DNA from: Chloracidobacterium sp. CP2_5A
Lineage (GTDB): Bacteria > Acidobacteriota > Blastocatellia > Chloracidobacteriales > Chloracidobacteriaceae
NCBI GenBank assembly: GCA_002254845.1
Contig: NKPT01000030.1
Span: 1-41,424, forward strand
DNA: 41,424 nucleotides
Direction: 5' to 3'
In this document: positions 13,354 to 41,424 of the stretch, piece after piece
Position numbering within the stretch: the stretch's first letter is position 1
Layout of the letters: each line of letters opens with the position of its first letter
Translations under genes and position numbers: made by a program
The notes under the pieces: generated by a model
What the model saw: the letters and a program-made list of their open reading frames with translations, nothing else
Database searches by the model: none
What the model was told of the DNA's origin: nothing

Positions 13354-14022
13354 CTAAAAATCAAGGCGCGGCAGGCGACCCGTGGTTGAGCGAGCGGCTT
13401 CCTGCCGACCGCGCTCGACTTCAAGCATGAACGTCTGCAACTTGATGCGGTCCTTGCGCCCTGGCGTGGATTCAACGCCTTCGCGGACGTTGACAGCATA
13501 GGGCTTGACAGCGCGAATGGCCGCGGCGACGTTTTCGCTCGTCAGCCCGCCAGACAAAATCACCCGCGCATACTGCTTGGCCGCCGCCGCGAAACGCCAA
13601 TCAAAGAGCCGCCCGACTTGGCCATCCGACGACTCGCCTTCGAGAAGCACCGCCGACGCTGGGTAAGCCTGCGCCCGCGTCACATCAAAGTCATCGCCGA
13701 CGCGCAGCTTTTTGACCAATCGCCACGCGCCAAGCTGGCGACAGTAATCCGCGCTCTCGTTGCCGTCGAGTTGAATCACTGACACCTTGGCGGCTTCCAC
13801 CATCGAGCGGAGGGCTTCAAAGTTGAACTCGTTGTGAAACACGCCCACGACCGGCACGAATGGCGGCAGGCGGTCGGCAATTTCGCGCACCGCTGCCGGC
13901 ACGATGTGGTACTCGCTGCGCGGATTGAGGTCGAAAGCTAAGGCGTCAGCCCCGGCGTCCAGGGCGAGCGCCGCATCCTGATAAGTCATAATCCCGCTTA
14001 TCTGTGTCTTAACCATAAGCAT
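13354..14022 (-). CDS. TrpF-like (phosphoribosylanthranilate isomerase family) protein with altered active site
   Basis: A 222-residue TIM-barrel protein matching TrpF along its whole length: an opening VKTQISGI strand, GADALAFDLNPRS, VVGVFHNE, QLDGNES, VILSGGL (154-160) and a closing GVESTPGRKD. TrpF isomerises N-(5'-phosphoribosyl)anthranilate in tryptophan synthesis. Here, however, the usual catalytic Cys of KICG appears as Ser (Ser9) and the usual Asp of the LLD strand as Glu (Glu128). QLHG reads QLDG, and the Asp and Ser of the final DVSSGVE strand read Asn178 and Arg180. It is probably a diverged paralogue whose reaction may differ. No other trp gene is adjacent. A GGGAGG site precedes the first ATG. 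Fold likely, activity doubtful. Confidence 0.75.
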   Translation of the reverse strand: MLMVKTQISGIMTYQDAALALDAGADALAFDLNPRSEYHIVPAAVREIADRLPPFVPVVGVFHNEFNFEALRSMVEAAKVSVIQLDGNESADYCRQLGAWRLVKKLRVGDDFDVTRAQAYPASAVLLEGESSDGQVGRLFDWRFAAAAKQYARVILSGGLTSENVAAAIRAVKPYAVNVREGVESTPGRKDRIKLQTFMLEVERGRQEAARSTTGRLPRLDF

Positions 14023-14303
14023 AAGCGCCTCCCGCTTGAAGCGGCTCTGCCGCGGACCCTGCGCGATATGCCGCCAGGTATGGCATCAGGGCGGCTTTCT
14101 AGGGCGAAGTGAAGTCTTTGATGATTCTCCGGCGAGCAATGCCGACCAGTCGCCGCCTGTGGCTATTATCCAACCTGCATCGCCGGCGCGCAACGCGCGT
14201 AACGCCGGCCCCATTGCGTCCGGCGGTCAACTTGCGCCACCATCGGCGACCGCGGAAGCCCCGCCGTGACCGCGCCAGCCCGCGAATTGAAGCTGCCGTA
14301 CCC

Positions 14304-15632
14304 ATGCCAACCCGTTATGACATCGTTGGAGGTCGCCCCCTGCGCGGGACGCTCCGCGTCTCCGGCGCGAAAAACGCCGCGCTCAAAATGATCGTCGCGG
14401 CGCTGATCGCCGACGGCGTCACTGCGCTGCGCAACGTGCCGCGCATTACGGATGTTGAAATCACCCTCAAGCTCTGCGAGGAGCTCGGCGCGCGTTACGC
14501 TTGGCGCGACGAGACCACGGTTGAAATTGACGCCCGCCGGGTCAATAACCCAGTCATCCCGCTCAAGTACAGCGGCTCCACGCGCACGCCCATTCTCTTT
14601 GTATCGCCGCTCCTGCACCGGCTCGGCAGAGCGGAACTCACGACCATTGGCGGCTGCTCGATTGGCCCGCGCCCGATCAATTACCACATCGCCGGGCTGC
14701 GTCAGCTTGGCGTCGTGGTCGAGGAAGTCTCCCGCGCCGCCTATCGGTTTCACGCCGATCAGTTACAGGGCAACATCATCACGCTTGAATACCCAAGCGT
14801 CGGCGCGACTGAAAATCTGCTGATGGCGGCTGTCGGCGCGCGCGGGCGCACCGTCATCCGCAACGCGGCGATTGAGCCGGAAATTTTGAATCTGGCCGGC
14901 ATGCTCCAGGCCATGGGCGCGGTCGTGTATCAGGATGTCAACCGCGCGTGGATTGTCGAAGGCGCGTCGCGCTTCCGGGCGGTCGAATATGACGTGATGG
15001 ACGACCGCATCGAGGCAGCGTCCTTTGCGGCCTGCGCCGTGGCGACTGGCGGCGAGGTTTTTGTCCAGGGCGCGATCCAGCGCGATATGGTGACGTTTCT
15101 CGACTGGCTACGCAAAGTGGGCGGCGAGTTTGACATCCGTCCCGACGGCATCCGCTTTTACCGTCACGGCAAGCTGCGCCCGGTCAACCTCGAAACTGAC
15201 GTGCATCCGGGCTTTATGACTGACTGGCAGCCGCCCTTCGTGGCGCTTCTCACGCAAGCCGAAGGCATTTCGGTCGTTCACGAGACGGTCTATGAAAGTC
15301 GCTTTGGCTACGTTGAAGCCCTGGTTTCGATGGGCGCGCGCATTCAGCTCACCAACGACTGCCTCGGCAGTCGGGAATGTCGGTTCACCAACAAGAACTA
15401 CCTCCACAGCGCGCTGATTTCAGGACCGACGCCGTTGCAGGGCGGGGAGCTGCATATTCCAGACTTGCGCGCCGGCTTCGCCTACGTGATGGCGGCGCTG
15501 CTGGCGACCGGCGAGAGCCGAATTTATGGCACGGAGTTTGTGCAGCGCGGCTACGCCGACTTGATCGGCAAGCTGCGCGCCATTGGGGCGGAGATTATCG
15601 AGACGCCGGCGGAGACGGTTGAACCGCAGTGA
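14304..15632 (+). CDS. murA: UDP-N-acetylglucosamine 1-carboxyvinyltransferase
   Basis: First committed enzyme of peptidoglycan synthesis. It transfers enolpyruvate from PEP to UDP-GlcNAc in the cytoplasm. The protein (442 residues from the selected ATG) carries Lys23-Asn24 in SGAKNAALK and the catalytic Cys118 in GGCSIGPRPINYH, so it should be fosfomycin-sensitive by known MurA rules. DDRIEAASF and the late GGELHIPDLRAGFAY are also typical. The frame is open 65 codons further upstream, but that stretch is Arg/Pro-rich and not part of MurA. The SurA-like gene starts across its stop codon, indicating translational coupling. Confidence 0.95.
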   Translation: MPTRYDIVGGRPLRGTLRVSGAKNAALKMIVAALIADGVTALRNVPRITDVEITLKLCEELGARYAWRDETTVEIDARRVNNPVIPLKYSGSTRTPILFVSPLLHRLGRAELTTIGGCSIGPRPINYHIAGLRQLGVVVEEVSRAAYRFHADQLQGNIITLEYPSVGATENLLMAAVGARGRTVIRNAAIEPEILNLAGMLQAMGAVVYQDVNRAWIVEGASRFRAVEYDVMDDRIEAASFAACAVATGGEVFVQGAIQRDMVTFLDWLRKVGGEFDIRPDGIRFYRHGKLRPVNLETDVHPGFMTDWQPPFVALLTQAEGISVVHETVYESRFGYVEALVSMGARIQLTNDCLGSRECRFTNKNYLHSALISGPTPLQGGELHIPDLRAGFAYVMAALLATGESRIYGTEFVQRGYADLIGKLRAIGAEIIETPAETVEPQ

Positions 15633-16399
15633 GGATGACGACAAACACTTGTAGTCCAGCCGCAGCGCGGCTCCGGCGTTGGCTTGGCGCCCCACTCTTC
15701 GGCGGACTCCTCGGCGGCTCGGTTGGCTTCGCGGCGCTCTTTGCGCCGCCGGTCGTCAGCGGAAAAGCTCAGGCGCCGGCGCGGCGGGAGTTTGTCGCTG
15801 ACCGCTTGGTGGCGATCGTCAACAGCGACGTGATCACGCAGAGCGACTTAGTGTGGCTTCTCGCCTTCGATCCAAGCGTCAGTCTCGTCTCGATTTCCGA
15901 CGCCGACTTGCAGCGCGCGCTGGCGGCGAAAATTGATCTGTTGCTGCTTTCGCAAGAAGCCGCCCGCTTTCCACTGGCCAGCCTGACGAGCGAGGAAGTC
16001 GCCGCTGCCAAGCAGCGGTTGATTAAGCGATTTTCATCGGAGGCCGTGTTCCGAGCGCGGCTGGAGCTGGTCGGGCTGGACGCCGAGACCTTCGACCGGC
16101 TCGTCCGCGAGCGGCTGCAGGTTGAGAAATACATCGGTTTCCGGTTTCAGACCTTCGCGCTCGTGACGGATGAGGATGTGCTCGACTACTACGAAACCAA
16201 GGTTCGCCCAGCCCTGGCGGCAGCGGGAACAGTGGCGCCGGAAATGCCGAATGAGGAGCAACGGGCGCTCATTGTCGAGATTTTGTCGCGGGAGCGGGCC
16301 GAGCGCGAGCAACAGCAGTGGCTTGAAGCGGCGCGGCGGCGGGCTGACATCGTTCCGCTGGCGCCCTATGCCAAGGCCGCCGCGCCGGAGCGTCCCTGA
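15629..16399 (+). CDS. SurA N-terminal-domain-like periplasmic chaperone
   Basis: A 256-residue protein with an N-terminal hydrophobic segment (about 17-40) that should be a signal peptide or anchor. A SurA-type helical chaperone domain follows: VADRLVAIVNSDVITQSDL is the standard SurA opening, with long helices to about residue 190. No parvulin PPIase domain follows, so it would act as a holdase for outer-membrane or periplasmic proteins without proline isomerase activity. The GTG start overlaps the murA stop; an ATG two codons later is an alternative. Coupling with murA suggests an envelope-biogenesis transcript. Confidence 0.8.
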   Translation: MRMTTNTCSPAAARLRRWLGAPLFGGLLGGSVGFAALFAPPVVSGKAQAPARREFVADRLVAIVNSDVITQSDLVWLLAFDPSVSLVSISDADLQRALAAKIDLLLLSQEAARFPLASLTSEEVAAAKQRLIKRFSSEAVFRARLELVGLDAETFDRLVRERLQVEKYIGFRFQTFALVTDEDVLDYYETKVRPALAAAGTVAPEMPNEEQRALIVEILSRERAEREQQQWLEAARRRADIVPLAPYAKAAAPERP

Positions 16400-16417
16400 G
16401 CGCGGCTCGCCCAAACG

Positions 16418-19084
16418 CTACTTAACCTCAAGCCAGTTTACGCCGATGCGCGCTTCCGCAACCAGCGGAACATTCAGCGTCGCCACGCCTTCCATCGCCG
16501 CCTTGACCAGCGCCGCCACGCCCGGCGCGTCCGTCGCCGGCGCTTCCAGTAACAGCTCGTCATGCACTTGCAACGCCAGTCGCGCCTGCGGAAACGCGCG
16601 CGGCAGCCGGTCGGCGACCGCGATCATGGCAAGCTTCATCAAGTCCGCGGCCGTTCCCTGAATCGGCGCGTTGATGGCTTCCCGCTCGGCGCGGGAGCGC
16701 GCCGTGAAGTTCCGACTTTGCAAATCCGGCATCCGGCGCAAGCGCCCGTAGAGCGTCCTGACGACGCCCGTCCGCCGCGCCTGTTCCGGCGTCTCGTCCA
16801 TGTAGCGCTTGATGCCCGGATAGGCGGCAAAGTAGGCGTCAATGGCCTTTTTGGCTTCCTTGCGCCCAATGCCGACGTTGCGCGCCAGCCCGTATGCCCC
16901 GACGCCGTACGCGATCCCAAAGTTGGTCGCTTTGGCGAGCCGCCGGGCCGCTCGCAGTTCCTCTGGCGTTTGCGCGCCGAAAACATCGCGCGCTGTTCGC
17001 TCGTGAATGTCCTCGCCAGCCCGAAACGCGGCCGTCATTCGCTCATCGCCGGTGATATGCGCCAGCAAGCGCAACTCAATCTGCGAGTAGTCGGCTGAAA
17101 TGAGCCGATGACCCTCCGCGGCGACAAAGGCCCGGCGCGCTCGGCGGCCCATCTCCGTTCGCACCGGAATGTTTTGCAAGTTCGGCCGCGCCGACGATAG
17201 TCGCCCAGTCGCCGTCACGGTCTGGGTGAATGTGGTGTGCAGGCGGCCGGTCTGCGGATTGACCAAGCGGGGCAGAACGGCGACGTAGGTGTTGAGCAGC
17301 TTCTCATGTTCCCGGTACTCGAGAATGAGCTTTGGCAAGTCATACTTTTCCGCCAGCTCCTCCAGCACATCCGCGCTGGTCGAGACTCGCCCGGTCGCCG
17401 TCTTCTTGGAGGTTTCGTAGTTGAGCCTTTCAAAAACCTCGGCCACCTGCTGCGGCGAGTTGATATTGAATTCCCCGCCCGCCAGCTCGTGAATCTCGGC
17501 CGTCAGGCGCTCCAGCTCGGCCCGCAGCTCGGCTTCAAGCTCCGCCAGCGCGGCCGGCTCGATGCGGACGCCCGCGCTCTCCATCTCGTAAAGCGTTGGA
17601 GCCAGCGGCAGCTCCATCGTTTCGTAAACGCTCAGCAGCCCCTCGTCGGTCAACTTCGCCCGCAGCGCCGTCCGCAGCCGCGACACGACATCCGCCGGGT
17701 CGAGTTGCGCATACGCGGCAGCGTCCAAGGCGAGATGCGCTTCAGCCAGCGCCTCCAGGGTCAGGCGCTCGGCTCTGACGCCCGGATCAAGCAGATAGCC
17801 GGCCAACAACGCGTCGTCAGTCAAGCTTTCAAAGCGGAAGGCGCGCGTCGGATCGAGCGCGCGCTCCGGCGGCGCTGCGCCATGGGGCGGACAGTTGATG
17901 AGATAGAGCGCCCGCTTGGCGTCGTAACAGGCTTTCTCGACCAGCCCGTTGGCGAGCGCGTCGAGCAGCGCCGCCGTCGTTTCCGCATCCAATAGGCTGC
18001 GTTCGAAACGCAGGGCGTGGCCGGGGCCAAACGACAGGCTGCCGCGCGTCATGACGCCCGCTTCGTCCTCAAAGTGAAACGCGAAGCGGTCGCGCGCATA
18101 GACGCTGTCAACGGCGCGGCGCAGCGCGTCCAAGCTTGAAAGCGATTCATAGCTTGTCGCAACTTCCGCCGCCGGCATCGGCGGCGGCGCTTTCGCCGGG
18201 CTCGCCAGCTGTTTGGCGAATTCGGCGGTCAGCGCCTTGAACTCCAGCCGGGAAAACAGGGCATGGCAGGCGGCCGCGTCTGGAGGTCGGCTGCGAAAGG
18301 CTTCGAGGTCGAGCGCGACGGGGGCTTCGCGGCAAATGGTCACGAGCCGCTTGGCCAGTCGAATCGTCGCCTGGTGATCGCGCAACGCCTCGCGGTAGGC
18401 TTTGCGCGACACTTCGGCGTACCGCTCCAGCGCCGCGTCCAGCGAGCCAAATTGACGAATGATTTGTACCGCGCCTTTTTCGCCAATGCCCGGCGCGCCG
18501 GGGATGTTGTCAGAGCTATCGCCCCACAGCGCCAAGACATCCGCGACCTGCTCCGGCGGGACGCCCATCCACGCCTCGACGCCGGCCGGGTCGCATAGGA
18601 CAAACTCGCCGGATTTGTTGTCCGAGCGCAGGATGCTGACCGCCTCGCCGACAAGCTGCGTCATGTCCTTGTCGTTGCTGACGATGACGGCTTCCAAGCC
18701 CTGCTCGACGGCTAGCCGCGCCAGCGTGCCAATGAGGTCGTCCGCCTCGTAGCCATCCGCCTTGACGCGCGAAATCCGCAGGGCGTCGCAGACTTCCTCG
18801 ATGACCGGAATCTGTTCCTGCAAGTCCTCTGGCATCTCGGCCCGGTGGGCTTTATACGTCTCGAGCCAATTCTTCCGAAACGAGGGCGCGGCCGAATCCA
18901 TGGCCACGACGATGTATTCCGGCGCATAGGCTTTCTGGAGCTTGCGGAGAATCGAAGTAAAGCCAAACACCGCGTTGGTGGGCTGGCCCGCCTGGGTCGC
19001 CAGCCCGCGCGCGGCGTAGTAGGCGCGATAGATATGCGCCATGGCATCCACTAAAAAAATGCGGCGGCGCGGCGCGGTGGTCAT
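16418..19084 (-). CDS. polA: DNA polymerase I
   Basis: Repair and Okazaki-fragment polymerase of 888 residues. The 5' nuclease domain opens with IFLVDAMAHIYRAYYA. The polymerase domain has motif A DYSQIELR (665-672), motif B with Lys718 in KATNFGIAYG, and motif C VHDEL (about 840). The central 3'-5' exonuclease-like domain (about 305-480) lacks the FDTET acidic motif; FHFED stands in its place. Proofreading is therefore probably absent, as in Taq and Bst polymerases. The start is the ATG before TTAPRRRIF; the frame is open 48 codons further but that stretch is not polymerase-like. A long 309-base gap separates it from purL upstream. Confidence 0.95.
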   Translation of the reverse strand: MTTAPRRRIFLVDAMAHIYRAYYAARGLATQAGQPTNAVFGFTSILRKLQKAYAPEYIVVAMDSAAPSFRKNWLETYKAHRAEMPEDLQEQIPVIEEVCDALRISRVKADGYEADDLIGTLARLAVEQGLEAVIVSNDKDMTQLVGEAVSILRSDNKSGEFVLCDPAGVEAWMGVPPEQVADVLALWGDSSDNIPGAPGIGEKGAVQIIRQFGSLDAALERYAEVSRKAYREALRDHQATIRLAKRLVTICREAPVALDLEAFRSRPPDAAACHALFSRLEFKALTAEFAKQLASPAKAPPPMPAAEVATSYESLSSLDALRRAVDSVYARDRFAFHFEDEAGVMTRGSLSFGPGHALRFERSLLDAETTAALLDALANGLVEKACYDAKRALYLINCPPHGAAPPERALDPTRAFRFESLTDDALLAGYLLDPGVRAERLTLEALAEAHLALDAAAYAQLDPADVVSRLRTALRAKLTDEGLLSVYETMELPLAPTLYEMESAGVRIEPAALAELEAELRAELERLTAEIHELAGGEFNINSPQQVAEVFERLNYETSKKTATGRVSTSADVLEELAEKYDLPKLILEYREHEKLLNTYVAVLPRLVNPQTGRLHTTFTQTVTATGRLSSARPNLQNIPVRTEMGRRARRAFVAAEGHRLISADYSQIELRLLAHITGDERMTAAFRAGEDIHERTARDVFGAQTPEELRAARRLAKATNFGIAYGVGAYGLARNVGIGRKEAKKAIDAYFAAYPGIKRYMDETPEQARRTGVVRTLYGRLRRMPDLQSRNFTARSRAEREAINAPIQGTAADLMKLAMIAVADRLPRAFPQARLALQVHDELLLEAPATDAPGVAALVKAAMEGVATLNVPLVAEARIGVNWLEVK

Positions 19085-19393
19085 AAGCGGTCGTCCTGTT
19101 TCGGAAGCGTTTGCGCGCCCGGCGCGCGCCTTCCGCCTTACTTGCGCGGACTGGCTTGCGCGGCTGAGCCGCCTTCCCCGCGCCTCGAAAGGCGGGGGCG
19201 CCCGCCATCCCGATTCTCTTCTCGTCATCAGGCGGGGACGCCGGGCCCTTGATAGCGGGTCGTCATCGGGGACGCCTCCTCAAGGCGGGGCGGCAAACAG
19301 GCGAGAGAAGGCGTTAGCGCGGCCGCGCTCCGCCGCTTCGCGTTGGCGCGGGCGCCATTGTTCCACGGTTGATACTCGCTTGTCAGCAAACAT
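19085..19393. other. 309-base gap between polA and purL, no gene seen
   Basis: The gap lies upstream of polA and should hold its promoter, but no convincing hexamer pair was found. It has a broken repeat: CGTCATC followed by GGGGACGCC occurs at 19223-19242 (with four extra bases between the parts) and at 19261-19276. Open frames here lack ribosome sites and protein-like patterns. Confidence 0.5.
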
Positions 19394-21688
19394 TCACAGA
19401 CTGAGCGCCGTTCGCCAGATGCGCTCCAGCTCGGCAATTGGCTCGTCCAGCGCGGCTTCTCCATCGATTTGCACCGTCAGCCGCTCTCCGCGGACGACGC
19501 CCAGCGCTTGGCACGGCACCCCATGGTCGCTGCACAGCAACTCGACTTCGTCGGCGCGCTGCGGCGCGACCACCACGAGCATGCGCCCCGGCGTCTCGCC
19601 AAATAGCAACCCCGCGCGCGAGAGTCCGGGCTTCGCGGACGACAAGCTGAGGTCCATGCCGGACGACGATTTGCCGTGAGCTGAAAAGCAAAGCTCGGCC
19701 AGCGCGATGAGCAACCCGCCATCCGCGCAGTCATGAGCCGCCGAAAACAGTCGCCGCCGCGCGCCTTCCAGAACGCACCGCTGAAGTCGGCGCTCGGCGA
19801 CAAGGTCGAGCGCCGACAGCGGCCCGACAATAGCCCCAAAGCGTCGCTTGACGTATTCCGTCCCGCCTAAATCCTCGCCGGCCGCGCCCAAAAGATAAAC
19901 GCTATCGCCCTCGGTCAGCGCGCGCGGCGCGATGACCGCCCGGACATCCTCGACCAGACCCACCGCGCCGATGACGGGCGTCGGGAAAATGCCGCGTCCT
20001 TCCGTTTCGTTGTAGAGGCTGACGTTGCCGCTCACGATGGGCGTTTCAAAGGCGCGCGCCGCCTCGCCCATCCCGGCGATGGCTTCGCGGAGCTGCCACA
20101 TGACTTCCGGCCGTTCCGGCGAGGCGAAGTTCAGGCAATTGGTCAAGCCAATCGGCTCCGCGCCAACGGCGACCAAGTTTCGGCAGGCTTCGGCGACGGC
20201 GAGCGCCGCGCCGCGCCGCGGCTCGATGAATACGTAGCGACCGTTGCCGTCCAGCGTCATGGCAATGGCCTTGCGGGTTTCCTTGATGCGGATGACAGCC
20301 GCATCCGCGCCCGGCAAGACGATCGTGTTGGTGCGCACCATGTGGTCGTACTGACGGTAAATCCACTGCCGCGACGCGAGGTTTGGCGCGCTAAGCAGCC
20401 GCCGCAGGTCGTCCCGGATTTCCGTTGGCGATAGCGCTCGCGCCGCCATCGGGAAAACCGTCGCCAGCTCGTCCTCGCGCGCCTGGCGTCGCTTGTCATC
20501 GTCGGCAAGCCACTCCGCCGGCGGCGCGGCCGGACGCTCATAACGCGGCGCGTCATCCGTTAGATAAGCGTTGGGAATGTCGGCGACCAGTCGGCCATGG
20601 TGATGAACGCGCAGCCGTTTGGTATCTGTCACGCGACCGACGACGACGGCGGCGAGGCCCCACTTGGCGAAGATTTCCTGCACCTCGCGCTCGCGTCCGC
20701 TGTCGGCGACGAGAAGCATGCGCTCCTGCGACTCGGACAGCATAATCTCGTAGGGCGTCATGCCCGTTTCACGTTGCGGTACTAGCGAGAGTTCAAGGTC
20801 AATGCCTGTCCCGGCGCGCGCGCCCATCTCGCAGCTGGATGACGTCAGCCCGGCCGCGCCCATGTCCTGAATGCCGACAATGCACCCGGCGCGCATGGCT
20901 TCCAGGCACGCTTCGAGAAGCAGCTTCTCGCAAAATGGATCGCCGACTTGGACGGTTGGGCGCTTGGCGAGAGCGTCGTCGTCGAATTCGGCCGAAGCCA
21001 TCGTTGCGCCGTGGATGCCGTCGCGTCCGGTTTTCGCCCCAACGTACACCACCGGGTTGCCAACGCCTGTCGCCGTGCCCAGGAAAATTTGATCGCGCCG
21101 AACAAGGCCCAGCGCGAACGCGTTGACGAGCGGATTGAGCGTGTAACAGTCCTCGAAATACACCTCGCCGCCAATGGTAGGGCAGCCAAAGGCGTTGCCG
21201 TAGTGAGCGATGCCCCGCGCGACGCCATCGAGCAGCGCCCGATTCCGCGCGCCTCGCTGCGGATCGTCGAGCGGCCCAAAGCGCAGGGAATTGAGCAGCG
21301 CGACGGGACGCGCGCCCATGGTGAAGACATCCCGCAGGATGCCGCCAACGCCGGTCGCCGCGCCCTGAAACGGCTCGATGAACGACGGGTGATTGTGCGA
21401 CTCGATCTTGAAGGCGACGCACCAGCCGTCGCCAATGTCAAGGATGCCGGCGTTTTCCCCGGGACCTTGCACGACGCGCGGGCCGGTCGTCGGAAGGGTT
21501 TTCAGGTACGCCCGCGAGGACTTGTAGGAGCAATGCTCCGACCACATGACGGAGAAAATGCCCAGCTCGACGAGCGTCGGCGTCCGCCCCAGAAGCTTGC
21601 GCAAGCGGGCGTATTCTTCAGTGGTTAGGCGGTGAAGCGCGAGAAGTTCGGGGGTGACGACAAGCTCAGTCGTGGAGTCAGGTGCCAT
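19394..21688 (-). CDS. purL: Phosphoribosylformylglycinamidine synthase subunit II
   Basis: ATP-dependent enzyme of purine synthesis that converts FGAR to FGAM with ammonia delivered by the separate PurQ glutaminase and PurS. The 764-residue length is that of the small, multi-subunit PurL type. Diagnostic segments are [11 protein letters not shown] (catalytic His52), the nucleotide loop [13 protein letters not shown] and [14 protein letters not shown]. purS and purQ are not in the window. A GGGAGA site lies about eleven bases upstream of the ATG. The gene is followed by polA on the same strand and preceded by parB with a parS site in the gap. Confidence 0.95.
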
Positions 21689-21837: not shown

Positions 21838-22695
<858 letters not shown>

Positions 22696-23475
22696 GCGAA
22701 ATGACCTCCTTGGCCAGTTGCAGGTAGGCGTTCGCCCCCCGCGACTTGATATCGTAAAGAATGATGGGCTTGCCATGGCTGGGCGCTTCGGCGAGTCGAA
22801 CGTTGCGGGTGATAACCGTCTCAAAGACCTGCTTGCCGTAGAAGTCTCGCAAATCCGCCATGACCTGATTGGAAAGGTTGGTGCGCTCGTCAAACATCGT
22901 CAGCAAGAAGCCCTCGACCGCGAGCGTCGGATTGAAGCTCCGGCGGATGCGCGCCAGCGTGTCGAGCAGCTCCGAAACGCCTTCCAGCGCGAAGTATTCG
23001 CACTGAATTGGGACGAGCGCCGAGTCGGCGGCGCTAAGGGCGTTGATGGTCAGCAGCCCCAGGCTTGGCGGGCAGTCAATGATGATGTAGTCGTATTGCT
23101 TGCGACACCCCTCCAGAACGCGGCGCAGCGCAAACTCGCGCTCATCCAATCCAACCAGCTCGACCTCCGCGCCTGACAGATTCCGGTCGGCCGGAGCGAC
23201 GTGGAGCGCCGGCAGTTCCGTGGCTTGGATGACGTTGGCGAGCGGCTCGTCCAGGATGAGAGCGTGGTAGAGCGTGCGCCGCAGCGCCCCGCGCCGGATG
23301 CCCACGCCGCTGCTGGCGTTGGCCTGCGGATCGGCGTCCACCAGCAGCGTCCGCTGGTCATTGACGGCCAGGCTTGCCGCCAGATTAATGGCGGTGGTGG
23401 TCTTGCCAACGCCGCCCTTCTGGTTGGCAACGGCGATGATCTTTCCCATGCCGCCCCCCCTTGTTCGCGCTGAAA

Positions 23476-31853: not shown

Positions 31854-32220
31854 GGGGATGTCACGGTTTCGACGTGGACATTGTGAGGCGCGCGCGAGGC
31901 GCGCCGGGCGCCCATGCCGCTCGTTAGAAAGCGTGGAAACAATCACCTGCCGAAACGCAGGAACTCGCTCTCGCAGCCTAATAACTGCTGAGCCGTCCGC
32001 TCATTCGGTCGCCTGTGCCGGAGAAGCGGGCGTGACGTTCACAGGCTGGCGGCCACGCTGCGCCTAGGGCGCGGCCGCGAGACCTTGCTGGGCTGGCGCT
32101 TGCGCCGCTCAAGGTCGCTGCTCCGGCAGCGCAAGCGCGAGAACAAGGGAAGCGACTACGCGCGTAGTCTCCGGCGCCAAAGGTCTGCGGACGAGGGTTC
32201 GACTCCCTCCATCTCCACCA
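31854..32220 (+). ncRNA. ssrA: Transfer-messenger RNA (tmRNA), one-piece
   Basis: Rescues stalled ribosomes by acting as tRNA-Ala and then as a short mRNA. The 5' end GGGGATG pairs with CATCTCC before ACCA at the 3' end, with one G-U pair, making the alanyl acceptor stem. The T arm is GGGTTCGACTCCC. The tag frame starts at GCG (31931) and reads AWKQSPAETQELALAA followed by two TAA codons (31979-31984), ending with the protease-recognised ALAA. At 16 residues the tag is longer than the common ten. CCA is encoded. Upstream TTAGAAA fits the resume-codon context. A terminator follows at once. Confidence 0.96.
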
Positions 32221-32477: not shown

Positions 32478-33737
32478 CTACTTCACCTCGGCGTATTTGG
32501 CGAGGAATTGCCCCACGTTCTCCAGCGAGATCACTTGGTTGGCCCGCTCCAAGTAGGATGCGGACATGATGTTGTCGTCGTCCTTGTTCCGGCTCTGGGT
32601 GAACACGTCCGTCTTGTAATGCTCAATCGGATCGTACTGGTCGGCCTTGGCCGCGATGAGCGCAAAACGCCGGTCGATGCATTGCGAGCATAGGCCGCAG
32701 TGGGTGTGCTGATTCGTCATCTCCCACGTGTGGGTGCAGGTCATCGAGTGCTTGATGAGGTCGGCGCAGCCCAGCTTGACGATCTGCTCGACGACTTCGG
32801 CCTTGGTCTTCCAGATATACGGGTTCTCGACCGTGAATGGCGCTTCAGCCACCAGTGTGATGATGTCCTGGAAACCCTTCATCACCTTGGGGTGTGTCGT
32901 CCGGGCGGCGCGGCCGCCGACCACTTGAGCGCACACCGGCAGATTCAGGCTGATCACGCCGTTTTCGTAGAAGCGCACGCTGCTCAGGCCGAGCAGCTTG
33001 GCGATGGTCGCGCCAATCGAGACGAACAGGAACGAGCGGCTGCGCTGCGTGTATTCCCGGTTCAGCGGCTTCTTCTTGTGAACGCGCGCGCTGATCTGAT
33101 GCGGCGCGTTGTCTCCCGCTTTCTGCGCCAGCAGATCTTGGAGCGTCTTGTGCCGGGTGTTGAGCTTGGGCGTGGCCTTGTGCGTGACCAGCGCCACACG
33201 CCGCCTCTGGCCCAACGCTTCGTCCAGCGCGCCGGCCAGTGAGTCCAAACCACCGGAAAACATCGCCACCCGCTCCGGTTTGCCATCCATGGTCTGTGCG
33301 TCGTTGAACTCCAGGTAGTCCTGGAACGAATGATCCTGTTCCAGCTTGACGAAGCTGAACGCGTAGTTGTCGTCCGAGAGGAAGCCCAGCGTCGAGGTGA
33401 GCGCGTTCTTCACCTCCTCGCCGTTCCAGAAATCCGGGTTGCGCACCGGCACGACGAAATGCAGATCGCGCCGCCATCCATCGCCGAAGCTATCGACATC
33501 GTCCGCACCGCGCAGAATCACCTGATCGGCGCTGTAGACGTAGGTGGCGATTTCTAGCAGGTCATGGAACTTGGTCGGCACCGTGCCGAACATCTTGCTG
33601 TGGATGTCCTCGATACGCAGCGTGACGTTGCCTTCTCCGTTCACGCCAGAGAGCCGAAGACGAATATCGTTTTTCGGATCGTCGCTGATCCCCTTGGCCG
33701 AGGCGTTTCCGCAAATGACGAATTTCTTAGTTTGCAC
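32478..33737 (-). CDS. QueC-like PP-loop ATPase (QatC-type), last gene of the defence operon
   Basis: A 419-residue enzyme related to QueC, the ATP-dependent enzyme that turns 7-carboxy-7-deazaguanine into a nitrile. The PP-loop is SGGLDS at 161-166. Zinc ligands are Cys334, Cys347, Cys350 and Cys353 (HCGLCSQC), the QueC arrangement. About 155 residues precede the QueC core, unlike the 230-residue housekeeping enzyme; this resembles defence-associated QueC homologues such as QatC of the Qat system. No queD, queE or folE is present here. The GTG start has GGGAG upstream and overlaps the small gene before it by 11 bases. Function in this operon is inferred: nucleobase or protein modification. 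Confidence 0.82.
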   Translation of the reverse strand: MQTKKFVICGNASAKGISDDPKNDIRLRLSGVNGEGNVTLRIEDIHSKMFGTVPTKFHDLLEIATYVYSADQVILRGADDVDSFGDGWRRDLHFVVPVRNPDFWNGEEVKNALTSTLGFLSDDNYAFSFVKLEQDHSFQDYLEFNDAQTMDGKPERVAMFSGGLDSLAGALDEALGQRRRVALVTHKATPKLNTRHKTLQDLLAQKAGDNAPHQISARVHKKKPLNREYTQRSRSFLFVSIGATIAKLLGLSSVRFYENGVISLNLPVCAQVVGGRAARTTHPKVMKGFQDIITLVAEAPFTVENPYIWKTKAEVVEQIVKLGCADLIKHSMTCTHTWEMTNQHTHCGLCSQCIDRRFALIAAKADQYDPIEHYKTDVFTQSRNKDDDNIMSASYLERANQVISLENVGQFLAKYAEVK

Positions 33738-34224
33738 TGGTGCGCGCTCCCAACTTCAATTCATCCTTCATCTTCTTCAGCGCGAAACCAGCAAAGCCAT
33801 CGGACGACTTTCTTGAAATGTCTCCGCCTTCCTCGTAGCGGTGTTTGGAAAACCATTCAGACGAGAAGTCTCGAACGATCACCGATGCTTCCCACGTATG
33901 CGTGCTCAGCGCGTGATCGAAAATCGCTTTCTGATTCATCGTCGCAAAGCGCATTCCTGCACCCACATGGGTCGCCAGCGTCTTGGACAGGAAATATTGG
34001 AGGCTCTGGTTGGCCAGCCGGTCGAAGAACGAACGCGACAGATCGCCGAATTCCTTTTGCGTTCCGAGTTTGGAAAGCGCCGCGCGCGAGCTGCGGCGGT
34101 GGGTGTACGGTGGCGGGAGGGTGCTGCCGGGGTTGGTGGCCCGGCGTGCTGCTGAGGCAGTGATGCTCGTTTCGTGAGGTCGCGTTTCGCGCCAATCTGA
34201 GCCATCGCAAGTCTTCCAATGCAC
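33727..34224 (-). CDS. Small protein of unknown function between SIR2 and QueC-like genes
   Basis: No family is recognised. From the GTG start the product is 165 residues. The first 45 are Thr/Pro/Arg/Ala-rich and look disordered. From about residue 46 on it is a compact helical domain with segments DLSRSFFDRLANQSLQYFLS, HVGAGMRF and WEASVIVRDFSSEWFS. AAGGTG lies eight bases before the GTG. An alternative ATG in another frame at 34205, with GGAAGA eight bases upstream, reads MAQIGAKRDLTKRASL; the domain could belong to that frame if there is a frameshift near 34090. Its end overlaps the QueC-like start, so the two proteins probably work together. Confidence 0.65.
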   Translation of the reverse strand: MHWKTCDGSDWRETRPHETSITASAARRATNPGSTLPPPYTHRRSSRAALSKLGTQKEFGDLSRSFFDRLANQSLQYFLSKTLATHVGAGMRFATMNQKAIFDHALSTHTWEASVIVRDFSSEWFSKHRYEEGGDISRKSSDGFAGFALKKMKDELKLGARTSAN

Positions 34225-34241
34225 GAAGCGATCACCTTGCT

Positions 34242-37200
34242 CTAGCCCAGGCGCGCCAGCGCTTCATCAAGGTTGCGCCGCAGGGCGGGCGCAAGCGCTG
34301 GAAGACGTGCGGCCACCGTTCTCAAGTCAGCAGCGTGGTAGCCGACGACGCAGTTGCAGAGGTAGATGAGCAGCTCAGCCGTTTCAGCGGGATAGCGAGT
34401 GACCAAGTCGCTGTCCCGCAGCTCGATCAGCAGATGGCTGTGCTCGATCTGGATCGTCGGAGCGCGGGCAGCTAACGAGGAGGCTACTGGGAATGCCTCG
34501 CCTAGATGCGGCAGCCACTCCAGCATCTTCCGGATCTCCGCCTCATCGAGAGCGGCGAGCGCACCTTGCAGTCGGCCCAGCCAATACCGATGCAGCCAGG
34601 TGTCCCACATCTGCTTCTTGGTAGCCGGCTGCATCTGGCGCAGGAAGTATCCAAGGTGAGAAGCGAAGCCGATCCGGTCCTCCATTGACCCGTGTTGAAA
34701 GAGTGCCGGCAGCAACTGTTGCGTCGGGTCGGCAACATGGAACACCGCAAGCGCGGTGAAAAACTCGATGAAACGCCGCCGACGGTCGGGCAGGTTCGCG
34801 CTGAGCCGCTGTAGCGCCCCAAGAAAGGCGGGCATCAATGCTTCAACCAGTGTTGGGTAGAGCCGCCCCCGCACCAGGAATCCGTCCCACGCCTGAGCGA
34901 ACTTGGGCCGATCCGCCTCACTGAACAACGGAATGAGATGCTGCCGCGTCCAAGGCTCGTCGAGGCCAAACAGGAACGCCGTCTGACTGGCTAGCAGGCT
35001 GCGACCGAGCCCGCCCTTCGACGTCGCATCTCGCACCACCATCGTGAACCACTGCCGGTAGTTGTCAGGCAGAGCGCGCTCCGCGCCTTTCTTGCCGCGC
35101 ATGAGCAACGACAGTCCGTTGACCCAGAACTCGACGATCACGCCCGCCGGTCGGTTGATGGCCCGCGACAGCCAGTCGTCAATGTCGTCATCCTGCAGAT
35201 TGGGTTGCAAGGCGTGCCACAGAGGCAACGCAATGGCGTTGGCCTGTTCCAGGAGTTCGAGGGCGAAAGGTTTTCCGCCATCTCTGACGAGTGCGTAAAG
35301 CAGGTTCGCAACATCGTGCGCGTGGGCGGCTAGTAGCTCGGTCTTCGCACTGATGGCTAGCAAGGCACGCCAGCCATCCAGCGGCAGTTCAGCTTCCTGC
35401 AATCCTCGAAATGCAGCGGGCCATAGATCAGACGTCCACAGCGACCTTTCGGCCAAAACCTCTGCCAGGTCAAATGCCCACGGTGTTTGCTGCTTGCACG
35501 CTTCTCTGATGGTTGCGATCAGGCCGTCCCGGTCTGGGCCGTTGAATCGCTTGCCTTGGAAGTTCAGCAAGTCGTCGAGTTGCTCCCGCGGTGTGCGAGT
35601 CAGAAGTTGTTCGATAGACCAGGGGCTTTGAGACCCAACCCAATCCGCTGAACCAAACCAATGAGTGAGGTCTGGATGCTCGGAAAGCCGCCAATCAGGA
35701 TAGGTAGCCCTGATCGGCGCCAGTGCAGCCTCGGCGGCAGCACAGTCGGGCTTCGCGCGAAGTAGCCATGACAACCAGTCGAAATGCGAGCGGGCAGTTC
35801 GCTGCTCGGCCGTCCAGTCGTCGCTCGCCGGTAGTTCGTGCGCGAGGACCGCATCTACCACAGCCTGGCGCGCCGCGTCACCTGCAACCGCATAGCTGAG
35901 TGCCACCGCGCGATGAACTTCGTGATGTTCCGAGAGATCGTGCAGGCCAACGCGAGCCAGCAACCAGTTCAAGCGATCGTCCGCAGATTTACCCGGGTGC
36001 ACAGTGAGCGCATGGATGGCAAGCCGCCGTAACAACGGTACATCCGATGTGGCGAGCCTCTCCACCCAGGCATCGAGTAACACAGGTGCATTGGTCGCGA
36101 GCCACTCCAGCGCGTCACGCGCCGCATCAATCAGAACATCCACCGCCTCGGGATATCGGTCTTGCTCGCGCGGTTCAATGGCCGAGCGACCGTAACTGAC
36201 CGGGTCCCACTCCCGCGACGCCTTTTCCCACGCCGCGAGTTCGCCGTGAATGTCTTCCAGCCGGCGCGTGATACCGGACAGCAGCGGCTGAGCGACTAAC
36301 GCCAAATGCGGCTTAATGTGCTTGGTCCAGACGTCATTTAACGACCAATGATCAGCACGTAGCGGGCAGTCGGCATCCAGGCGTCGGCCGCGCGCGTGAC
36401 CTTCCTCGTCGTGCCACCTGAATCCAGGCTTGATGCTGAGGCGGTGTTCGCTCATGGTGAGGAACACTTTCAGTGTAAGCGGCACAGCATTGTGGCTGGC
36501 GCAGCGCTCAGCCAACCACATCAGCACATGATGGTCAGCTTGGTCCGGCGCGCTGGCCAACAGAATCGTGACCCAGCGTTTGAGGGCAGGTTCCTCCAGC
36601 GGCTTGTCCTTATTGACCCCCAGTTCGCGGCCGATCGCCCCCCAGAACAGCGGATTCAGCCGCAGCCCATGAGAAGCGATCAACTCGAATACGGTGTCTG
36701 CATGCGTGATGGCGAAGTGTTCTGCCAGCCACCAAGCCAGCAGCTTGTCCCGCTCGCTGAGGTCGGCGGTGCCAAAGAGCGCATCGAGGTGCTTGCGCGC
36801 ATTCAGCCATCTGGGCCACTCGGCATCCCGCGCAACATTGGTTAGAAACCGCGTCGTGTGCACTTCGCGAAGCGCCTGCTCGACTTCGCTGATGGCCTCT
36901 TCGTCCGCTGGGGGAAGGCGCGCGCCGATCTCCGCCATTCGGTTCTGCCAGTCCAATGCACCGCGCGTGGCCCGTTCGGCGAGCCGTTGCACGCCGTCAT
37001 AAAGTTCGTGGTAGGCGTTGGCACCAGTTCCCTTGTTAAAGCGGATAGGTTTGATGCCGAGCAGGTCCCAGTTCCCGTCTTCCTCCGTTAGTGCAAAGCG
37101 CCCGGCAACGCCATCGGCCGGAAGTGCGCGCGCCAGGTAATTCATGACCACGTCGTTATGGCTGTAACCGACGAATAGCACGGTGAATTGACGGAAAACG

Positions 37201-37745
37201 TCCACTAAGAATCGCCGCGCCCAACCTTCCGTCAGGTACGCGCGCCCGAAATCCGCATCCGTGAGCACCAGATCCCGTGCGCGGGGAAGCGCTCCATGAA
37301 CGTGCACGATGCCGGTGAAGTCGTAGCCCAGCGGCAGGGCCGGAGCTCGGTAGACCTCGGGTGTTGAACCGAACAGCATGCTTGCGGCCGTCTCAAAGTG
37401 CAGGTCGAAGTTGGTGGTCACCAGCCTTACGCGCTCCGCAGTGCGGAATATCCGCAGCAGGTCATTATGGAGAGTGTTCGGTGCGCTGCCTGCGGGTGAC
37501 AGGAGCTGGGCAGCACGTTCGTGGACCGCGACCTTGCGATGATGCAGTTGACCCAGAAAACGATCCAGCGGCTCCGTGGGTTCAAGCCCCGTGCCTTGAG
37601 CGATATCGCTGGTCAGCTTCCAGAAACTGGCGAGATTCGACGGCGGTCCCATCGAAACGCCAGCGCCGGCGAAGACCACCAGCTTGTCGTCGCGCAGAGC
37701 GTCGAGAATGCGGTCGTCGAACTCGATTGCACCGAGCTTGGTCAT
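34242..37745 (-). CDS. SIR2-domain protein with long helical C-terminal region (defence NADase candidate)
   Basis: An 1167-residue protein. The N-terminal ~280 residues are a SIR2 fold: the NAD loop VVFAGAGVSMG (GAG at 27-29), TTNFD (Asn112, Asp114), the catalytic His150 in HVHG, and FVGYSHND (191-198). Bacterial immune SIR2 proteins hydrolyse NAD+ on phage infection. The remaining ~880 residues are alpha-helical and Leu/Trp-rich, in the style of DUF4020-type regions and HEAT-like scaffolds. They have no recognised motif and may sense the trigger. It follows the DUF499 gene by 52 bases and precedes the small gene by 17. NADase activity is inferred from the retained residues. Confidence 0.85.
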   Translation of the reverse strand: MTKLGAIEFDDRILDALRDDKLVVFAGAGVSMGPPSNLASFWKLTSDIAQGTGLEPTEPLDRFLGQLHHRKVAVHERAAQLLSPAGSAPNTLHNDLLRIFRTAERVRLVTTNFDLHFETAASMLFGSTPEVYRAPALPLGYDFTGIVHVHGALPRARDLVLTDADFGRAYLTEGWARRFLVDVFRQFTVLFVGYSHNDVVMNYLARALPADGVAGRFALTEEDGNWDLLGIKPIRFNKGTGANAYHELYDGVQRLAERATRGALDWQNRMAEIGARLPPADEEAISEVEQALREVHTTRFLTNVARDAEWPRWLNARKHLDALFGTADLSERDKLLAWWLAEHFAITHADTVFELIASHGLRLNPLFWGAIGRELGVNKDKPLEEPALKRWVTILLASAPDQADHHVLMWLAERCASHNAVPLTLKVFLTMSEHRLSIKPGFRWHDEEGHARGRRLDADCPLRADHWSLNDVWTKHIKPHLALVAQPLLSGITRRLEDIHGELAAWEKASREWDPVSYGRSAIEPREQDRYPEAVDVLIDAARDALEWLATNAPVLLDAWVERLATSDVPLLRRLAIHALTVHPGKSADDRLNWLLARVGLHDLSEHHEVHRAVALSYAVAGDAARQAVVDAVLAHELPASDDWTAEQRTARSHFDWLSWLLRAKPDCAAAEAALAPIRATYPDWRLSEHPDLTHWFGSADWVGSQSPWSIEQLLTRTPREQLDDLLNFQGKRFNGPDRDGLIATIREACKQQTPWAFDLAEVLAERSLWTSDLWPAAFRGLQEAELPLDGWRALLAISAKTELLAAHAHDVANLLYALVRDGGKPFALELLEQANAIALPLWHALQPNLQDDDIDDWLSRAINRPAGVIVEFWVNGLSLLMRGKKGAERALPDNYRQWFTMVVRDATSKGGLGRSLLASQTAFLFGLDEPWTRQHLIPLFSEADRPKFAQAWDGFLVRGRLYPTLVEALMPAFLGALQRLSANLPDRRRRFIEFFTALAVFHVADPTQQLLPALFQHGSMEDRIGFASHLGYFLRQMQPATKKQMWDTWLHRYWLGRLQGALAALDEAEIRKMLEWLPHLGEAFPVASSLAARAPTIQIEHSHLLIELRDSDLVTRYPAETAELLIYLCNCVVGYHAADLRTVAARLPALAPALRRNLDEALARLG

Positions 37746-37797
37746 GAGCGCGGCTTACCCATCGCAGTAATGCGAATGACGAAGACCTTTGGGGCAC

Positions 37798-40644
37798 TCA
37801 TTCGCCAGCCTCGAATTCCGCGCTCTTGAATTTCAGCGCGTTGCAATTCTCCTTCACTGCGCGCTGAAGTCCGTCGTCGAATCCGGTAGGAGACTCGGCC
37901 TGGATCTCGACGGCGATCTTCACCTTCACCCCCGGCCGCAGCGTGAACGGCTGGACGACCTCGTCGACCAGATCGGCGAACTGTTTCTTGGCGAGAATCG
38001 GGTCGAGGTCGATGCTGCCGTAGAACCGCTTCTTGGCGCTCTGGCCGGCAGCCTGGCCACCGGCTTGGTAGCCGCCCTTGGCTGAGTCTTCGGCGCGCGA
38101 GGCGTCGCCATTGCCAGTCATCGCCTCGGTGGCGTCGCTTGATCCGACATCGGGAGCCTTGGCACGCGACGCTTCCTCGGCGGCACGCAGCGCCTCCATG
38201 TAGGCCGCCGCGGCGAACGGCTCGATCAGCAGCAGCGATGCGTCCATGATCGGCGACGCGCGCTTGCCGTAGCTGAAGCCCACGTAGCGGCCATCCTCCT
38301 TGCCCTGCGCGAAGCCGAAGAAGTCGCGGCTCTCGGCGCCTGCGGCCAGCGTCATCTGGAAGACGGTTTCGTCCTTCAGGCGCGGCAGGTAGAGCTGCTG
38401 ACAGCTCTGCTGCCAGACGGTGAGGGCAGAAACCTCCTTGACGTCATCTTTCCAGAACCAGTCTTTGAGCACCTTGGAGAGGTGGATCGGCGCCCATTCG
38501 GTGATGAGCAGCTCGTTTTCCTTGAGCGTGCGCTCGATCTCCTGCGACCAGTTCTGCGCGCTGGGGTTGAGTTGGAAGTGCTCCCAGCGCAGCTCAGACA
38601 GTCCTTTGCCTGGTCGCGCCTCCTGCATGGGCGCCAGCAGCCACTTGTAGGTCTCGCGAATCATCCGCCGCACGGTCTCCTCGGCCTGCGAGAGGCTCTC
38701 TTGCGCCTGCTTGGCCATCAGGTTGTCGAGGACGATGCGGTTGTCGCGATAATCCGCGACGATGCTGCGCCAGGCGAGATACGAGCGCACATGGTCCTTC
38801 AGACGGCTGACGCTGTCGTAGTCCGCCGCTACGAAGATCAGGCGGTTCTGCTTGAAGCGGGGCTGTTCGCCGCGCTTCTTCAGGATCTCGGTGGCTCGCT
38901 CGATGGCAAGACTTTGACCGCTCTTGCTGAAGGCTGCATCGGGTGGCAGCGCCACGAGGCGCAACTGCCAGTCATCGGGAACATCGTTGCTGGCGGTGAA
39001 GATGTGGATGCCGCCGAAGACGCCGCTGGCAAAGCTGCGCTGCACGCGCTCTCGGAGCGTGGGGAACACGTCCTCCTTGTCCTGGAAGCGGCGCTTGCGC
39101 TCTTCCATCTCGCGTCGCAGGTTGGGCCGCGTGTCGAGCCAGAAACGGTTGTTGGCGTGGTTGAGGTAGTGCAGCCGGTCGGAAAGGCGCCTGAGCGCAT
39201 CTTTGAACACCCCGATCTGCTGGCCTGGCTGCACCGCGCCCAGGAGGATGCGTTCCTGTTCAATGCCGCGCGCCATCTGGTTGGTGGCACCGGGTGCGCT
39301 ACCGAGGAAGATCGTGCGCGCTGCGCGACGACAGGCTTGCACGCTGCCAAAGCGGGTATCGCGGTTTTCGATCTCGGTGGTCTCGGCGCGCTCGCCGTCC
39401 ACGTCACGCTCGATCACCGGGTCCCAGCCCTGGGGCAGGTAGTAGATGACCTCGTTGCGCACGTCGGCGTCGTACAGCGGCAGGCTACCGGGCAGGATCA
39501 AAAGGTCGTTGTTGCCGTCCTTCCACAGACGGTGGATCACCTTGGCCATCAGTTTGAGCACGCCGCGGGTGCGCTGGAAGTTGTCCAGCGACGACCAATC
39601 TTCGTAGAGCCGGTCGAACACTTCGGGGTGGATCGGATAGGCGCGCACCAGCCGCTCGAAGTAGCGGCTCTCCTGCGTCTCCTGCGGGAAGTCGCCTCGG
39701 TTGGCGGTGTAGAAGTCGGCGAAAGCGCGGCATACCGATTCCATCGCCAACTTGTCGCTGATGCTGGAAAACAGTCGGCGACGGACGATCTCGAACGCCT
39801 CCTCGGTGGCCACCGGCTTCCACAGCGCCTGCACGCGACCGAAGTAGTGCGCCAGCGCCTCCAGCGCTTTCACGCCGCGCTGGCTGCCGGCCTCCTTGTC
39901 GGATTCGGGCAGCGATGCCAGCAGCACGGCGGTCGGCACGGCCTTCAAGGCCTCGGTGAGCGCCTGCACGAACGAGAGGTTGGAATCGAAGGTGCCACCA
40001 GACAGCGCCTTGCCTTCCTCGAACTGGCGCACATAGGCCACCAGCTCGTCGATCAGGATCACGCACGGCGCGTAGCGTGCCAGCAGCGTCTCCAGCACTG
40101 CCTTGCCGGGCGAGGTGCCGGAGGCGTCGGCGTCGGCCACCAGGGCGTAACCTTCTGCGCCCCCGAGTTGCCACGCCAGATCGCCCCACAGGGTACGGAT
40201 CGCTTGACCCTCGCGCACCAGTGGCTGATTGGGCGAAGCTTTGATGCCGTCGAGCACAGCGATGCGCGCGGGCGGCAGCTCGGTGACTCCAGCGGCATCC
40301 AGAATGGTAGGAATCCCCGGCAGATCGCTGGTCGCCGCCTCTCCCTTGGCCAGGTGATACACGGCGAGCATGGTGTGCGTCTTGCCGCCGCCGAACGCCG
40401 TCTGCAACTGGATGACCGGATCGCCGCCCTTGCCCGCCAGGCGCTTGACCACCGAGTCAAGCAACAAGCGCATGCCCTCGGTGATGAAGGTGCGCTGGAA
40501 AAACAGCGCCGGGTTCTGATACTCGGCCGTGGCCGTGCCGGCGTGCACGCGCGACAGGTCGGCGGCGAACTCGGCTTGCTGGAAGGTACCCCTGAGGACA
40601 TCTTCATGCGGGACGGCAACTTCACGCCATGGCTTCAGGCTCAT
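37798..40644 (-). CDS. DUF499 AAA-type ATPase
   Basis: A 948-residue P-loop ATPase. Walker A is TAFGGGKTH (GGGKT 85-89) and Walker [10 protein letters not shown] (196-204). DUF499 proteins accompany DUF1156 DNA methylases in anti-phage clusters; I recall this pairing from family names and cannot search it here. A low-complexity Ala/Gly/Asp-rich linker at about 835-880 separates the core from a C-terminal domain of about 70 residues. A GGGGAGAG site precedes the ATG. It starts 12 bases after the DUF1156 stop, so translation is probably coupled. A long open frame on the opposite strand is a composition artefact. Its role may be a motor or sensor for the methylase complex. Confidence 0.88.
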
Positions 40645-40656
40645 TGATCTCTCCCC

Positions 40657-41424
<768 letters not shown>

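Follow-up and report, generated by a model that had tools for sequence, protein, structure and literature searches.

What does a TrpF barrel do once it has lost the residues with which TrpF works? The 41,424-nt stretch of Chloracidobacterium DNA analysed here (the window) raises this question with a trpF-like gene on the reverse strand (13354..14022), whose product we call paralogue A, or simply A. Our analysis shows that A is a TrpF barrel with a replaced and strongly conserved active site that exists beside a canonical TrpF, and that it is a variant of the known phosphoribosylanthranilate isomerase (PRAI) family. Since A is nearly unchanged across Chloracidobacterium and a normal copy is available for tryptophan, it very likely does a job other than the tryptophan step.

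Paralogue A has the scaffold of TrpF

The open reading frame of A spans 222 aa, and its second ATG (MVKT, window position 14016) is the conserved start, at which the orthologues begin. The protein scores 100.5 bits against PF00697 (PRAI; curated cut-off 22.7), which places it within the PRAI/TrpF family. In a sequence search its best solved relative was the TrpF of T. maritima (E 1.8e-34), and the solved relatives, eight distinct sequences, were TrpF enzymes. An AlphaFold2 model made from 43 aligned sequences (mean pLDDT 92.8, pTM 0.89, with lower confidence in about the last ten residues) matches T. maritima TrpF (1nsj) on superposition, at Z 28.2, an rmsd of 1.6 Å over 200 residues and 36% identity. 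The first entries without a TrpF domain were ribulose-phosphate 3-epimerases, at Z 18.5; the match to 1nsj lies far above these, and the scaffold of A is therefore that of TrpF. The Pfam score and the superposition thus bear out the preliminary description of this DNA, which had A following the TrpF scaffold. It had also seen no trp gene close by, and indeed a Pfam scan of 24 further ORFs, all but a few of those in the window (19394-21688 and 22646-23449 being among the exceptions), turned up no trp enzyme. In the window's genome (3.41 Mb, 385 contigs), trpC, trpA and a canonical trpF lie on contigs other than that of A.

Six invariant active-site residues are replaced

We aligned ten A proteins with 61 canonical TrpFs, namely nine copies of the second paralogue (TrpF-B, or B; see below), the T. 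maritima enzyme and 51 further sequences of the phylum. In 16 columns all 61 canonical sequences agree. Six of these columns are replaced in every one of eight A proteins, seven from Chloracidobacterium and one from a sister genus (G300), and all six residues are retained by the 61 canonical TrpFs, the nine B proteins included. The replacements are Lys5 to Gln, Cys7 to Ser, Arg36 to Tyr, His83 to Asp, Asp126 to Glu and Asp178 to Asn (Asn in seven proteins, Ser in that of G300). Nine further invariant columns are kept in 8/8, while Gly27 is kept in two of the eight and is Ala in six.

On the window's reverse strand, and as placed by the alignment, the replaced residues are Gln7 (14002..14004, for Lys5), Ser9 (13996..13998, for the catalytic Cys7), Tyr38 (13909..13911, for the carboxylate-shielding Arg36), Asp86 of the QLDG motif (13765..13767, for His83), Glu128 (13639..13641, for the catalytic Asp126, and Glu in all ten A proteins of the family) and Asn178, the first residue of an Asn178-Val-Arg180-Glu181 stretch in strand 8 and the following loop (13480..13491; Asp-Val-Ser-Ser in T. 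maritima). Also fixed in the same eight proteins are Arg180, Glu181 (equivalent to Ser181), Asp31 at the end of strand 2 (13930..13932, reverse strand; non-Asp in the 15 other rows listed) and Lys105 (13708..13710, reverse strand), which replaces an Ala103 conserved in 57 of the 61. Ser9, Glu128, Asp86, Asn178 and Arg180 had been called correctly in the preliminary description; Gln7, Tyr38, Glu181, Asp31 and Lys105 come in addition, each fixed in the eight proteins.

T. maritima TrpF uses the Cys together with Asp126 for acid-base catalysis; its Arg36 forms a pair with Glu184 and screens the carboxylate of anthranilate against negative side chains (PMC9088769). In place of the catalytic residues that mark a TrpF enzyme (EC 5.3.1.24), A has Ser9 and Glu128 in 8/8 proteins, and the arginine of the anthranilate end is Tyr38 in 8/8 and Ser in two intermediate forms described below. 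Because A lacks Arg36 yet has Glu184, binding of phosphoribosylanthranilate (PRA) should be disfavoured. The strand-8 loop, site of the changes at Asn178, Arg180 and Glu181, binds phosphate in TrpF. Judged from the alignment, then, the changes fall on catalysis, the anthranilate end and the strand-8 loop together, and we infer that A has lost PRA isomerase activity.

A canonical TrpF is available for tryptophan synthesis

A second canonical trpF in the genome, for which the preliminary description advised looking, does exist: contig C117 encodes another full-length PF00697 protein, TrpF-B (143.8 bits), with the canonical catalytic residues. A occurs in all ten family genomes compared, and B in all seven of Chloracidobacterium and two of the three others. 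B was not found in G300, an assembly of about 90% completeness in 1090 contigs in which trpA begins at a contig end; as that genome is fragmented and incomplete, the absence of B from it is unsure. In G051, B sits in the run trpE, trpG, trpD, trpC, trpF-B, trpB, trpA (by Pfam families), and in G063 in the same run (by similarity), with A on another contig in both. TrpA is present in 10/10 family genomes, and the window's genome also encodes TrpC. Branched-chain amino acids and lysine are reported to be needed by C. validum and C. thermophilum, which grow when supplied with them, and tryptophan is unnamed among the requirements in the cited parts of these reports (PMC12816986, PMC4376005). The cell thus probably makes its own tryptophan, with TrpF-B presumably doing the isomerase step. 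We found no account of a second TrpF in Chloracidobacterium among the top-ranked open-licence PMC papers.

At the same time, neither paralogue reaches the cut-off of 215 bits of the NCBIfam trpF equivalog model (NF002298). Scores against this model run from 241.3 for the operon TrpF of G312 through 206 for the A of G063 to 155.5 for the window's A (its best), but B is also short at 181.8, so that the score alone proves nothing.

We considered whether A might replace HisA and rejected this, as a pair of strong PF00977 matches is present in all seven Chloracidobacterium genomes (in G299, contig ends divide the second); those of the window's genome, at 268.1 and 270.7 bits, are taken together as HisA and HisF. 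In G051 (99% complete) there is no strong HisA/HisF match, the best (27.6 bits) lying inside TrpA.

Paralogue A is under stronger constraint than TrpF-B

Substitution rates were compared by the Nei-Gojobori method among the seven Chloracidobacterium genomes (21 pairs for each paralogue, of which 20 remained when the near-identical G123/G165 were set aside). Within the genus, dN is 0.036-0.075 for A versus 0.150-0.331 for B (20 pairs each), and in the pairs that were divided A has changed roughly 3.4-5.5 times less than B at the protein level. Omega is 0.02-0.08 for A (19 pairs, one dS not being computable) versus 0.14-0.27 for B; as many dS values are near saturation, dN compared over the same species pairs is the firmer measure.

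The window's genome (G000) also holds a truncated copy of A, on contig C383 (28.6 bits to PF00697), which over 97 codons differs from the intact gene by 28.5 non-synonymous changes at dS 0.35. Over the same codons, the intact genes of G000 and G299 differ by 6.5 such changes at dS 0.47. Although the catalytic residues are gone and a truncated copy lies in the same genome, it is scarcely credible that A is decaying or an assembly artefact, given identical substitutions in eight genomes (in three of them in two contigs each), an omega as low as that above and a pattern in the truncated copy quite different from that of intact A. The preliminary description had argued against random decay, and the fixed substitutions, the purifying selection stronger than that on B and the contrasting truncated copy strongly support it.

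The truncated copy (locus L062, 8228-8710 of C383) is a decayed 3' part of A beside a tRNA-Arg/tRNA-Leu pair, the same pair that flanks A in the six other Chloracidobacterium genomes, and directly behind the remnant are an aminotransferase-like gene and the genes next to it. It appears that A moved to its place in the window (13354-19228) as one block together with a murA-like gene, a gene that matched nothing in Pfam, and polA. Operon formation of A with downstream genes was rejected, the small ORFs found there in four relatives overlapping the tRNA pair and not being taken as genes.

Paralogue A probably descends from the native operon TrpF

In our tree all ten A proteins form one clade (100/99) inside a set of 13 (100/100) that includes G312, G325 and G219, and all nine B proteins form a separate clade (100/100) on a long branch (1.47). 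A thus probably descends from the native, vertically inherited trp-operon TrpF, and B is distantly related. The root of the tree is for drawing only; it is the canonical state of the other 61 rows that gives the direction of change, in which the residues of A would have moved away from that state.

At 56% identity to the window's A, the operon TrpFs of G312 and G325, two genomes of the same order, are canonical at all six positions. The A proteins of G051 and G063 are 63-64% identical to the window's A; in them Asp126 has become Glu and Arg36 has become Ser, with Lys5, Cys7, His83 and Asp178 kept. Orthologues with both Cys and Asp, which the preliminary description named as evidence against a changed reaction, were found only as operon TrpFs outside the family; within it, the sister genera G051 and G063 do have the Cys, but already together with Glu. 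On sequence grounds this is read as an ordered series rather than as a refutation of a changed A.

At 51 distinct trpF loci outside the family (about 1.5 kb of flank), trpC-like and trpB-like genes are both present in 43 and at least one of them in 50, and no aldolase or BMC-H gene is present at any. A third, very diverged PRAI-like protein (type C; L061 6900-7544 and L060 7374-8099) occurs in G051 and G063, with KICC at strand 1, Cys for His83 and a branch of 3.45; its gene follows an mntP-like gene in G063 and a similar gene in G051. Many other Blastocatellia also have a second PF00697 match that scores about as high (72-88 bits), and G267, of the same order and 97% complete, has no PRAI match.

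A microcompartment locus may be where paralogue A arose

The neighbours of A in Chloracidobacterium suggest no pathway partner. They are a murA-like gene (14304..15632, forward strand, start inferred from the onset of similarity; EPSP_synthase, 233.5 bits), which lies divergent to A in 7/7 genomes, a gene for a SurA-like protein without a Pfam match, and polA. Farther along the window, a tmRNA gene (31854-32220) is followed by an apparent defence island (32478-41422) with QatC-like (191 bits), Dsr1-like SIR2/DUF4020 (219 bits) and HmaC (1595 bits) proteins and an HmaB end running off the window.

In G051, G063 and G300, a class II aldolase gene (PF00596) and a BMC-H gene (PF00936) directly precede A on its own strand, both assigned by Pfam for the G051 proteins and by similarity for the other two genomes; the BMC-H gene exceeds the EutM cut-off, and the gaps in the locus are of about 85-215 bases. 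Elsewhere in G051 and G063, an aldehyde dehydrogenase accompanies one BMC gene and an RnfC-like protein accompanies another, which has two domains; PF03319 shell genes are found in all three genomes. These genes resemble the ACI type described from Acidobacteria, in which shell genes go together with a class II aldolase and unknown proteins (PMC8217296). The aldolase/BMC-H pair is present in 10/10 other Blastocatellia that we picked, with no TrpF-like gene within about 1.4 kb beyond the pair, and PF00936 and PF03319 genes are absent from 7/7 Chloracidobacterium genomes, though A is kept. As for shell genes in general, 10/10 of the picked Blastocatellia have PF00936 and 3/3 sister-genus genomes both families; the phototrophic genus has none.

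Could A, then, be an isomerase or similar enzyme of an ACI-type aldolase pathway, acting on the aldolase's substrate or product? Its place behind the aldolase and BMC-H in 3/3 family genomes with shell genes, when the pair is without an adjoining TrpF-like gene in 10/10 other Blastocatellia, speaks for such a role. Against it, all seven Chloracidobacterium genomes are without BMC and EutN_CcmL genes and still keep A under constraint, the gaps leave an operon only putative, and operon TrpFs of the same order end in a C-terminal tail closely similar to that of A; we consider this role unlikely. Because the shell genes are missing where A is kept, the association with aldolase and BMC-H is suggestive of A's origin, not of its present role. 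A microcompartment origin, which we think unlikely, would overlap with the view of A as an enzyme. It is a minor possibility that a new activity arose on the TrpF barrel in the microcompartment locus, passed through the ordered changes that sister genera still show, and persisted as a strongly constrained enzyme standing on its own once the phototroph had lost the compartment.

An encapsulation peptide at the C-terminal tail was considered and rejected, since operon TrpFs of G312 and G325 have a similar tail and the model is of lower confidence at this end. A link to the aldolase within Chloracidobacterium also found no support: each of the seven genomes has one PF00596 protein, and that of the window's genome is PRK07044 (321.8 bits), of another subfamily than the G051 aldolase tested. 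Regulatory signals were not clearly enriched, with 0 promoters (0.2 in shuffled controls) and 1 terminator (1.6) in the window around A, and 3 promoters, two of them overlapping (1.2), and 5 terminators (4.0) in the flank of the G063 BMC-H gene (L052). A search of open-licence PMC text returned no paper joining a bacterial microcompartment with phosphoribosylanthranilate isomerase.

What paralogue A may do

It is highly probable that A no longer serves as a PRA isomerase, taking together the possibilities that it is another enzyme and that it is a pseudoenzyme. Of these we lean towards the former, with A as a neofunctionalised barrel enzyme of a related acid-base type. B would have taken over the tryptophan step and A would have left the trp operon; in the family ancestor A would have lost the anthranilate-shielding arginine and exchanged the catalytic Asp for Glu, and its remaining catalytic residues would have been replaced before Chloracidobacterium and the G300 genus split. 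The resulting pocket would be formed by Gln7, Ser9, Asp31, Tyr38, Asp86, Lys105, Glu128, Asn178, Arg180 and Glu181. As a guess at catalysis and the kind of substrate, Glu128, at the end of strand 6, may be the base, partnered by Asp86, Ser9 or Lys105, and the acidic cluster of Asp31, Asp86 and Glu128 may bind a metal. Given that the aryl-carboxylate site is gone, that Ser-Ser has become Arg-Glu and that Gly-Gly is kept, A would probably act on a small compound that is phosphorylated or acidic, perhaps sugar-phosphate-like, and free of an aryl carboxylate. Some points tell against A as a new enzyme: the exchanges to Ser and Glu are conservative, which makes a measure of PRA isomerase activity possible; its neighbours in Chloracidobacterium hint at no pathway partner; and strong conservation fits a pseudoenzyme equally well.

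Next in probability, if distinctly lower, is a pseudoenzyme: a TrpF that has lost catalysis and is retained because it binds or regulates another protein, e.g. TrpF-B, a different Trp enzyme or a protein that senses a ligand. All six invariant polar residues are gone while the whole protein is very strongly conserved, and the plant TSB-like protein offers a precedent for a non-catalytic activator from the Trp pathway (PMC12727527). On the other hand, the new pocket residues are fixed, mostly as charged or polar residues, in 8/8 proteins, and a dead pocket might drift.

We think it improbable that A has remained a PRA isomerase in which Ser and Glu do the work of Cys and Asp, and which duplicates or tunes TrpF-B. 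The family match is clear, both of those exchanges are conservative, the A proteins of G051 and G063 may still be active, having Lys5, Cys7, His83 and Asp178, and no B was found in G300. But Arg36, His83, Lys5 and Asp178 are also gone in 8/8 proteins, all six residues being kept in 61/61 canonical ones, and G300 is incomplete (1090 contigs, trpA beginning at a contig end).

A family search names A as TrpF, and as a label of function this name is very probably wrong. One and the same barrel exists in this lineage in an ancestor-like form (operon TrpF of the same order), an intermediate one (G051, G063) and a fully remodelled one (G300, Chloracidobacterium), and these three stages make a natural change of enzyme function testable residue by residue. 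A also points to an unrecognised function in a chlorophototroph, one that is kept more strictly than its tryptophan enzyme.

Comparison with known systems

A shares with T. maritima TrpF (1nsj/1lbm) its fold and Gly158-Gly159, Gln81, Glu86, Glu184 and Lys190, and its clade lies beside operon TrpFs; it differs in the replacement of Lys5, Cys7, Arg36, His83, Asp126 and Asp178, in lying outside the trp operon and in the presence of a canonical TrpF as well. The A proteins of G051 and G063 belong to the same clade (100/99) as the window's and likewise have Glu for Asp126 and no Arg36, but they keep Cys7, Lys5, His83, Asp178 and Ser181, and aldolase and BMC-H genes adjoin them. PriA and subHisA of Actinomycetota are similar in being isomerase barrels that shift substrate where trpF is lacking (PMC4462073); unlike A, they belong to the HisA family rather than to PF00697, and PriA keeps the catalytic aspartate (PMC9088769). 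Finally, the plant TSB-like protein resembles A as a paralogue from the Trp pathway that has changed essential residues and a new role (PMC12727527), although it derives from TrpB (TSB) and not from TrpF.
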